This document shows, in pieces, positions 23,123 to 25,199 of a stretch of 38,078 nt of DNA; position 1 is the stretch's first letter; every line of letters starts with the position of its first letter. The DNA comes from Enorma massiliensis phI (GTDB lineage Bacteria; Actinomycetota; Coriobacteriia; Coriobacteriales; Coriobacteriaceae). The notes below the pieces were generated by a model. It was given only the letters and a program-made list of their open reading frames with translations, was not told where the DNA came from and searched no databases. Location of the stretch: the NCBI RefSeq assembly GCF_000311845.1, contig NZ_HE978574.1, positions 1,569,008 through 1,607,085 of the forward strand, given 5' to 3'. A program made the position numbers and the translations under genes.

Positions 23123-23548
23123 ATGAAGCGCGACGAGCTCAAGAAGATTCTCCCCCATCGCGAGCCGATGCTCCTGCTTGATGAAGCCGAGGTTGTCGAC
23201 GGCGTCGCTCACGGACGAATCACCATCACGGGCGACGAGTTTTTCGTTCAGGGCCATTTCCCCGGCAACCCCGTCGTTCCCGGCGTGATCCTCTGCGAGA
23301 TGCTCGCCCAGAACTGCTGCGTGCTCATGGGTGATGGCCTTTCCGGACAGGAAAATGTGACGCCGTTCTACACGAGTCTCGATAAGGTTCGCTTCAAGCA
23401 CCCCGTGCGCCCTGGGGACACCGTGGAGCTCACGTGCCAGATCACGCGGCACCGGGGCCCCTTCTACTTTGCGAGCGGCGAGGCACGCGTCGGCGATGCG
23501 CTCTGCGTGACGGCCGAGATGTCTTTCGCCCTCATGCCCGCAGAATAG
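23123..23548 (+). CDS. fabZ: 3-hydroxyacyl-ACP dehydratase
   Basis: This 141-residue hotdog-fold enzyme removes water from 3-hydroxyacyl-ACP. The catalytic motif GHFPGNPVVPGV contains H45, and E59 lies on the central helix (ILCEML). The ATG follows the accB stop with no intervening base. The 298-nt gap after it contains a MITE-like element and the apparent accC promoter. Confidence 0.96.
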   Translation: MKRDELKKILPHREPMLLLDEAEVVDGVAHGRITITGDEFFVQGHFPGNPVVPGVILCEMLAQNCCVLMGDGLSGQENVTPFYTSLDKVRFKHPVRPGDTVELTCQITRHRGPFYFASGEARVGDALCVTAEMSFALMPAE

Positions 23549-23660
23549 CGCCCGGATACGCTGCGGGCGGGCGAGATGGCGCCTGGAGCAACCTTCGCCG
23601 CCAGGCATCCGCTCATCCCGCCTGCCCTCAACGCACTTTTTTCGAAAATCCACAATTTTG

Positions 23661-23831
23661 TGGCAGTTATTTCAACTATGAACGATTGGGGCCGCCATGC
23701 CACGCCCCAAACGTCTCAATTAAGCCTCTTAGTCCCTCCGCACGAAGCGCTTTCCTGCGGTTTTGTGCTTGAGCGCCGATCGCCAGGCAAAATATTATCC
23801 GCGCAATCGTTCATAGTTGAAATAACTGCCA
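23661..23831. mobile_element. MITE-like element with 28-bp perfect terminal inverted repeats
   Basis: The left end (23661-23688, beginning TGGCAGTTATTTCAAC) is an exact reverse complement of the right end (23804-23831) over 28 bp. The element is 171 bp long and encodes no plausible protein. It is flanked by a direct repeat ATTTTG (23655-23660 and 23832-23837), as expected for a target-site duplication made by a DDE transposase acting in trans. It is inserted between fabZ and accC, so close to accC that the right-hand duplication merges with the GGAGG ribosome site. No transposase is in the window and the family is unknown. The rest of the 23549-23846 gap holds no gene. Confidence 0.75.
23769..23798 (+). 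promoter_or_regulatory. Candidate accC promoter inside the MITE-like element
   Basis: TTGAGC (23769-23774) and TATTAT (23793-23798) are 18 nt apart. Transcription would start near 23805, at the edge of the right-hand terminal repeat, giving a leader of about 40 nt before the accC ATG. The match is moderate. Confidence 0.45.
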
Positions 23832-23846
23832 ATTTTGGAGGCATCG

Positions 23847-25199
23847 ATGTTCAAGAAGATCCTCATCGCCAACCGCGGCGAGATCGCGGTGCGCGTCATC
23901 CGCGCGTGCAAGGAGATGGGCGTCCAAACCGTAGCCGTCTACTCCACGGCCGACGCGAACGCGCTCCATGTACAGCTCGCCGACGAGGCATATTGCATCG
24001 GCGGGCCGCGTCCGCAAGATAGCTACCTTAACGAAGATGCCATCCTGACTGTTGCCGTCGCAAGCGGAGCAACCGCCATCCATCCCGGCTACGGCTTCCT
24101 TTCCGAGAACGCAGGGTTCGCGCGCCGTTGCCGCGAATGCGGCGTGGTGTTCGTGGGGCCATCGCCCGAAGTAATCGAGCGCATGGGCGACAAGGATGCC
24201 GCGCGCCGCTGCGCCAAGGAGGCCGGCGTGCCCATCGTCCCCGGCTGCGACCTGCTCAAGAGCGCCGACGAAGCCGAACGGGAAGCCGAGCGCATCGGCT
24301 GCCCGGTTCTCATCAAGGCGCGCGCGGGCGGCGGCGGGCGCGGTATCCGAAAGGTCGAATGCGCACAAGACGCCGGCAAAGCTTTTACCGAAGCCCACGC
24401 CGAAGCCGAGGCTGCCTTCGGCGACGGGGAGTGCTATATGGAGAAGTTCGTCGCCCCCGCGCACCATGTCGAGGTGCAGGTGCTCGCTGACGCCCATGGC
24501 AACGTGGTCACGCTCGGCGAGCGTGAATGCTCGGTGCAGCGCCGAAACCAGAAGCTCCTGGAGGAAAGCCCCGCGCCATGCCTCGAGGGTCGCGACGACA
24601 TCCGCGAGCGCATGTACGAGGCAGCGCGCAATCTGGCGCGCGCAGTCGGCTACGAAGGGGCGGGCACGATCGAGTACCTATACGCAGACGACGGCAATTT
24701 CTACTTCATGGAGATGAATACGCGCCTGCAGGTCGAGCACCCCGTCACCGAGTTTGTAACCGATATCGACCTGGTCAAGTGGCAGCTTCGCGTGGCCGCG
24801 GGCGTCGAGTTCCCCTATGCGCAAGACGAGATCATGCCCGCAAAGCGCTCCCATGCCATCGAATGCCGCATCAACGCAGAGGGCCCCGCGCCCGACTACC
24901 GCCCCTCCTGCGGCACCATCCACTCCATGCATGTGCCCAACGGCCCATGGGTGCGATTCGACTCGTCTCTCTATCCCGGCGCCGTCGTGCCACCGTACTA
25001 CGACTCGATGCTCGGCAAGCTCATCGTGCGCGCGGGCACTCGTGAAGAGGCCATCCGCAAGATGCGCTCGGCGCTCACCGAACTCATCATCGACGGCGTC
25101 GACGCTAACACCGAGCTCCAGCTCGATATCCTCTCGAACTCCGAGTTCCTCTCCGGCATCTATCACACGAACCTGATGGAGCACCTCTATGAAGACTAA
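23847..25199 (+). CDS. accC: Biotin carboxylase subunit of acetyl-CoA carboxylase
   Basis: This 450-residue ATP-grasp enzyme carboxylates the biotin of AccB. It shows KILIANRGEIAVRVIRACKEMG at the N-terminus, the Gly-rich ATP loop ARAGGGGRGIRKVE and the catalytic EMNTRLQVEHPVTE motif. The start at 23847 has TTTTGGAGG immediately upstream, part of which comes from the flanking duplication of the inserted element. It overlaps accDA by 11 nt. Confidence 0.97.
   Translation: MFKKILIANRGEIAVRVIRACKEMGVQTVAVYSTADANALHVQLADEAYCIGGPRPQDSYLNEDAILTVAVASGATAIHPGYGFLSENAGFARRCRECGVVFVGPSPEVIERMGDKDAARRCAKEAGVPIVPGCDLLKSADEAEREAERIGCPVLIKARAGGGGRGIRKVECAQDAGKAFTEAHAEAEAAFGDGECYMEKFVAPAHHVEVQVLADAHGNVVTLGERECSVQRRNQKLLEESPAPCLEGRDDIRERMYEAARNLARAVGYEGAGTIEYLYADDGNFYFMEMNTRLQVEHPVTEFVTDIDLVKWQLRVAAGVEFPYAQDEIMPAKRSHAIECRINAEGPAPDYRPSCGTIHSMHVPNGPWVRFDSSLYPGAVVPPYYDSMLGKLIVRAGTREEAIRKMRSALTELIIDGVDANTELQLDILSNSEFLSGIYHTNLMEHLYED

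Follow-up and report, generated by a model that had tools for sequence, protein, structure and literature searches.

A paired inverted-repeat element in front of accC in Enorma massiliensis and a putative two-part chromosomal system

The paired element between fabZ and accC

Analysis of a 38,078-nucleotide stretch of Enorma massiliensis phI (hereafter the window), which belongs to a genome of 2.28 Mb assembled into three contigs (G000), revealed a paired repeat element located between fabZ and accC, the identities of both neighbours having been checked by Pfam. The features of the locus are as follows:

23123..23548, + strand: fabZ-like gene with a FabA-like domain, the upstream neighbour
23634..23643, + strand: left outer T-tract, CACTTTTTTC, the counterpart of a family-wide T-tract at -26 to -21 (76 flanks)
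23661..23831, no strand: whole paired element, TGG...CCA, 171 bp, with an inner 17-bp site-to-site length of 151 bp
23661..23688, + strand: left arm, TGGCAGTTATTTCAACTATGAACGATTG, a dialect-1 half-site
23751..23766, + strand: central motif, TTTCCTGCGGTTTTGT, family consensus AATCCTGsGGTTTTGT
23804..23831, - strand: right arm, an exact inverted copy of the left arm
23847..25199, + strand: accC, biotin carboxylase, with its ATG at 23847
23852..23858, - strand: right outer tract, degenerate, within the first accC codons (CTTCTTG on the minus strand)

The two 28-nt arms (23661-23688 and 23804-23831) are 100% complementary and lie 115 nt apart, which bears out the perfect 28-bp inverted repeat claimed in a preliminary description of this DNA. 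They form the longest perfect inverted run, at up to 300 bp apart, in the whole window, the next longest measuring 13. The inner part of the arm, TTCAnnTATGnnCGATT, is common to the window's genome and four other genomes, while the central motif is positioned 63 bp, or six helical turns, from the left 17-bp site. The T-tracts, found 21-26 nt outside the arms, and the central motif belong to the element, which is thus larger than previously described; the ortholog of the degenerate right tract in a related genome (G002) reads CTTTTTG.

Two of the four same-genus relatives, G002 and G004, possess an element at exactly this junction, ending 14-15 nt short of the accC ATG (15 nt from the right arm to the start codon in the window's genome and G002, 14-15 in G004). 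Their outer arm sequence differs from that of G000 and is changed in both arms. G002 is recorded as Collinsella massiliensis, which we take to be placed now in Enorma. In G001 (Enorma burkinafasonensis), fabZ adjoins accC and the element is absent, while a search for the junction in G003 (76% complete) gave no match. That an insertion split the fab-acc operon had been suggested; a recent event of this kind is at odds with the occupied junction in two related species, one relative being without the element. Judged by these comparisons, the accC element is an old inherited copy and not a recent insertion.

The same comparisons bear on the earlier assignment to miniature inverted-repeat elements (MITEs). 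This holds in so far as the element is dispersed, non-coding and bounded by inverted repeats, and the search for other copies that had been called for found the arms recurring in the genome as six pairs. A recent MITE insertion with a target duplication is, however, ruled out by the same-junction relatives and by the flanks: ATTTTG does lie on both sides, but as a target duplication it is put down to chance, a direct 6/6 match being found at one of 38 pairs, the window's own, where 0.32 is expected. Conservation of the whole sequence at this place with no other copies, named earlier as evidence against a MITE, was found by half: the architecture, but not the sequence, is conserved in place, and there are further copies. 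The promoter proposed to drive accC (TTGAGC, 18 nt, TATTAT) is indeed present at 23769-23798 (9/12), with one such match found versus 0.2 ± 0.5 in shuffles, but there are no promoter-like sites in the orthologous accC elements of both species examined, G002 and G004. Because the match is not conserved in these orthologs, and because elements are also found between convergent genes, a captured accC promoter is unsupported, and this reading was dropped.

Paired sites and the DNA helical repeat

The arm occurs nine times in G000 with up to three mismatches, and a looser form occurs 12 times, as six pairs that we read as intergenic. A still looser pattern, with three mismatches, found no further arm sites in this genome; the dialect-1 set of G000 is therefore sharply bounded. 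The six pairs are confined to contig C1 (1.6 Mb), with none on C2 (0.67 Mb), while a second dialect (see below) is present on both. Short stretches aside, the six cores are unrelated; they fall into lengths of 114-116 and 125-126, about one helical turn apart. Three arm variants are found among the six pairs, both arms of a pair carrying the same variant, and three of the 12 arms differing further by single bases. With the window's own genome left out, three assemblies among those searched were the only ones to contain exact pairs, and the viral contigs searched for arms, pairs and protein returned none. The inner site TTCAnnTATGnnCGATT is present in five of 65 family genomes (10 sites in G000, 11 in G001, 27 in G002, 10 in G004 and four in G064; control, 0).

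To define pairs, sites were found singly first, with the pairing distance unselected beyond a range of 100-260 bp. The resulting 38 pairs, across five genomes, measure only 150-152 (8), 161-163 (19), 171-172 (5) or 182-183 bp (6), a ladder with R = 0.944 at 10.5 bp. When each locus contributes a single pair (n = 28), R is 0.943 and the best period 10.5 bp; among 2000 simulated sets, R reached at most 0.618 at any period between 7 and 16 bp. The same steps separate species at single loci, matched by neighbouring proteins: lengths are 161/171/172/182/183 at the prs locus, 151/162/162 at accC, 152/182 at feoB and 150/182 at carAB, where the lone site of G001 has a decayed partner at 150 bp. It is difficult to account for the ladder and these whole-turn differences except by selection that keeps two sites on the same DNA face. 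In other clades, gene-linked pairs (n = 27) give R = 0.777 with a best period of 10.5, as measured on pairs hand-trimmed to TG...CA ends chosen after seeing the data; in mean phase they differ from the Enorma set by about 1.5 bp.

In many cores, a central motif is also in register with the arms. The motif AATCCTGsGGTTTTGT is matched at ≥11 of 15 positions by 27 of the 38 cores (average for shuffled cores, 0.55), at 42 (7), 52-53 (6) or 62-63 bp (14) from the 5' site (R = 0.974); the distance to the 3' site is likewise stepped (R = 0.965). Since the motif was defined on the same elements, its presence is partly circular, its stepped position not. Dialect 2 and other clades show it weakly or not at all, and its orientation varies among elements. 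Across 76 flanks, a T-tract is found at -26 to -21 (T 0.92 at -23); positions -11 to -8 are G/C, and position -4 is always A/T.

Pairs at several loci are inherited vertically, and their positions are old and conserved across genera, while the flanking gene sets differ between species. They are located before accC and carB, near homoserine O-succinyltransferase, prs and feoB genes, and also between convergent genes (e.g., L051 and L053), with no orientation rule. At one locus (L126:2963-3365), two elements abut, the second being degenerate, with one A/T tract common to both. Orthologous elements in genus g3 (which we infer to be Collinsella) have flanks 0.83-0.99 identical and cores 0.56 to 0.98 identical. 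Core identity falls as low as 0.56 where the flanks are at 0.92, a rapid change for which our best explanation does not account; an alignment of six such elements contains substitutions and almost no length change.

The linked protein family and its arm dialects

Two paralogous genes of G000 are associated with pairs:

C1:169005-170069: gene for a 355-aa protein with a PD-(D/E)XK/DUF559-like signature, with a pair directly 3'
C1:231095-232159: second paralog, 55% identical to the first, flanked by two pairs with arms TGGCTAAAAATGTCGATTT

A pair likewise lies downstream of the counterparts of the first gene in G001, G002, G004 and G064. The gene occupies a conserved prs locus in Enorma, where the protein is 62-76% identical between species and the neighbouring ribose-phosphate pyrophosphokinase 92-95%. 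Homologs are present in 63 of 64 family genomes, many genomes in the survey being drafts; among the matches listed in 296 genomes of the class, the close subfamily (score >300) is found only in the window's family. A pair was located within 1.5 kb at 29 of the first 30 loci, several of which are orthologous to each other and two of whose pairs score weakly. In a second set, a pair accompanied 13 of 14 closer homologs and none of five distant ones. At fresh loci, searched over 500 bp 3' of the gene, a pair was present for 18 of 20 homologs classed as close and for 11 of 20 classed as distant, with none at the other nine distant homologs and none in 100 shuffled regions; this larger sample overturned the notion, drawn from those five, that distant homologs are without pairs. 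The two close homologs that were missed in the fresh set keep the left arm and have lost the right half of the element, one of them near a contig end. In two genomes (L296:2040-2301; L300, minus strand, 2040-2400), unrelated DNA that includes a shared stretch, GTGGTGTAAGAG, takes the place of the right half of the gene-linked element, as if by insertion into the core. A further family of inverted pairs, GGGACAGGTTTATTTTGGCAGGTTTTAT, with an outer length of about 160-200 bp, is found near the same genes in genus g3 (L156:326-509, L157:2461-2660, L159:327-501, L166:316-515 and L172:3077-3275).

Thirty aligned members share S206-P-x-E209, D259, E270-Y, D285, R288 and G291. The candidate PD-(D/E)XK core residues E209, D259 and E270 are invariant, and the position of the catalytic lysine is N (EYN) in nearly all 30 members and EYS in one; the nuclease may therefore be inactive. 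Matches to DUF559 are weak and confined to 14 of the 30 members (best E-value 8.7e-4), a Pfam search with member 1 gave no hit at E ≤ 10, and the long N-terminal part has no match. The best PDB profile match, at E = 0.87 over residues 266-312, is a mobile-intron nuclease (3r3p), which we take to be the Vsr-like I-Bth0305I. We read the protein as having a PD-(D/E)XK-like (DUF559/Vsr-like) C-terminal signature in which N replaces K. It shares with DUF559/Vsr-like nucleases the C-terminal D...E-x-N-G-x2-H...D..R pattern, and differs from them in its EYN in place of E-x-K and in its long unmatched N-terminal part.

Profile searches with member 1 and with the 30 members matched the linked gene to no transposase model and to no AbiEi family; for the Y1 HUH tyrosine transposase in particular, there was no Pfam hit in member 1 (E ≤ 10) or in the 30 members (E ≤ 1). 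Both G000 paralogs matched 0 PHROGs families, and PADLOC returned DpdF, at E = 0.013, as its sole match. In place of the parent transposase anticipated earlier, the partner of the element is most likely this PD-(D/E)XK/DUF559-like protein with its own linked pair, which is of no known transposase kind.

The dialect-2 arm, TGGCTAAAAATGTCGATTT, is dispersed in G000 as nine pairs, two of them with one diverged arm, beside the six pairs of dialect 1. As each paralog has its own dispersed arm, one genome holds two protein-arm combinations; there are about 1-18 pairs per genome and dialect. The pattern of a third dialect, in genus g3, matches 18 of 64 genomes, of which 11 have a close gene, six have pairs without a close gene and G064 has one weak site. 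Within g3, an ACG to TTG change in both arms accompanies 17 fixed differences in the protein, every one of them within columns 31-175 (of 375) and none in the nuclease-like part, although the two TTG proteins may be sisters, making the switch one event at most. Class-wide hits to a gapped pattern in G016, G019 and G020 proved to be an unrelated array of AACCCATAGTT repeats, probably plasmid-type. The dense inverted and direct AACCCATAGTT/TTATTTCAACCCATAGTT repeats in these three family genomes (L055:1300-1860, at G016:C15:5306; L056; L057) are probably a plasmid-type origin or partition array.

A candidate two-part system and competing explanations

Taken from sequence comparison, the element is probably a paired recognition site, one of many, that belongs to a two-part system of the chromosome made up of a nuclease-fold protein and dispersed, helically phased sites. 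The first part would be the fast-evolving protein of about 355 aa encoded at C1:169005-170069; the second would be the dispersed sites, each of two inverted half-sites (an outer T-tract plus an arm of about 28 bp) held on the same helix face by whole-turn spacing, often with the central motif in phase too. The register of the half-sites and centre, together with the linked, fast-evolving nuclease-fold gene, points to a protein complex joining both arms. In such a complex, the protein would bind both arms at once and loop or wrap the core. Cutting or nicking of the DNA may keep or spread the sites, as RAYT is thought to spread REPINs; catalysis and mobility are both steps that we infer. An effect on accC, if any, would come from the bound loop or from the 28-bp stem that read-through RNA would form by the ribosome site, and not from promoter capture.

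The explanation that competes most directly takes the pairs as the regulon of a DNA-looping regulator, a DNA-bending repressor of about 355 aa (AbiEi-like or another DUF559 protein) with no mobility. A looping repressor requires phased inverted operators, elements lie before accC and carB or near homoserine O-succinyltransferase, prs and feoB genes, and AbiEi antitoxins bind inverted repeats, according to PMC7319586, much as binding is proposed here. We nevertheless consider this reading unlikely: the convergent intergenic pairs and the missing orientation rule do not suit operators, gene neighbourhoods vary between species, and the usual site is 3' of its cognate gene, not at its promoter. 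An AbiE operator lies upstream of an abiEi gene with AbiEi domains, an arrangement not found here, where the linked sites are usually 3', further sites are dispersed and no AbiEi model hits the protein. That a homing-endonuclease-like selfish gene targets arm-related sites and leaves the pairs as homing footprints is less probable again and would seem doubtful, even with pairs flanking the gene on both sides in several genomes and a mobile-intron nuclease as the best structural match; the gene stays at a conserved prs locus in Enorma, the dispersed things are pairs and not genes, and a catalytic residue is variant.

An ordinary MITE family, made up of non-autonomous remnants of a transposon whose terminal inverted repeats are long, would account for perfect inverted repeats in multiple intergenic copies. 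It would also fit two dialect-2 copies in G000 (C1:662436-662631 and C1:698112-698307; L213 and L215), whose cores are 84% alike in unrelated flanks; units therefore do get copied, and these two, which count for the two-part system as well, are the clearest sign of a copying event. Whole-length likeness is nonetheless lacking among the six dialect-1 cores, and with the near-absent target duplication, the whole-turn ladder, positions old enough to be conserved across genera and a linked gene that hits no transposase model, a MITE family is very improbable. Slightly less credit still is given to an RNA element, a hairpin in read-through mRNA with selected pairing in its 28-bp stem: the arms do change together between species, but loop length and motif position track the 10.5-bp repeat of DNA, both motif orientations and convergent intergenic sites occur, and an Rfam search of six loci found no known structured RNA, so that this candidate was set aside on the ladder and the Rfam result. 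Invertible promoters (invertons) sharing one recombinase were favoured at first, given arms that are nearly identical within a pair and different between pairs, and the motif orientation at the prs locus does differ between G002 and G004. They are now the least likely of the readings, dropped because of core orientation, which is kept in all 19 orthologous comparisons in genus g3 (inverted identity 0.45-0.54), with 0 of the 19 showing a core in both orientations at one locus; the motif also faces accC the same way in three species.

Among known systems, the two-part system proposed here most resembles REPIN-RAYT. As described in PMC3116915 and PMC8049555, REPINs are dispersed intergenic inverted doublets with a variable spacer (a 71-bp distance in the GI group; PMC3116915), the vertically inherited gene has the repeat in its flanks, and several repeat groups are each tied to their own paralog. 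The elements described here are likewise dispersed as inverted doublets and linked to a protein gene. The protein, however, is PD-(D/E)XK/DUF559-like, whereas RAYT is a HUH Y1 transposase; the spacing takes several values in 10.5-bp steps, in contrast to the 71 bp of the GI group; and T-tracts and a phased central motif are added. Because the defining Y1 transposase is lacking, the system may be said to work like a REPIN-RAYT, not to be one. BIME/RIP elements similarly place two inverted units around a middle protein site, in their case a central IHF site between two inverted palindromic units, and we know of no dedicated linked protein gene for them. In P1-type parS, arms are phased around a bent centre and species dialects exist, as here; the copies described here differ in being dispersed over the chromosome. 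A search of the open-access literature found REPIN and AbiEi papers and no description of this two-part system.

A bolder proposal, which we hold tentatively and at somewhat less than even confidence, is that these findings represent a previously unknown class of two-part system in the Coriobacteriales, in which a nuclease-fold protein writes or repairs its own phased paired sites and folds the chromosome into small loops, with species and paralog dialects that co-evolve. That the protein writes or repairs its sites is suggested by arms that stay matched in each pair and similar from locus to locus even as the cores diverge. If true, a second, unrelated protein fold, besides that of REPIN-RAYT, would maintain a population of small paired repeats, and the whole-turn rule would be a rare case in which DNA geometry read from genomes predicts a nucleoprotein complex. 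Furthermore, the dialects, two of them in one genome with two paralogs, would provide a natural series for the way in which DNA-binding specificity changes together with many sites, in hosts related to Enorma and Collinsella, gut bacteria for which little molecular biology is known.
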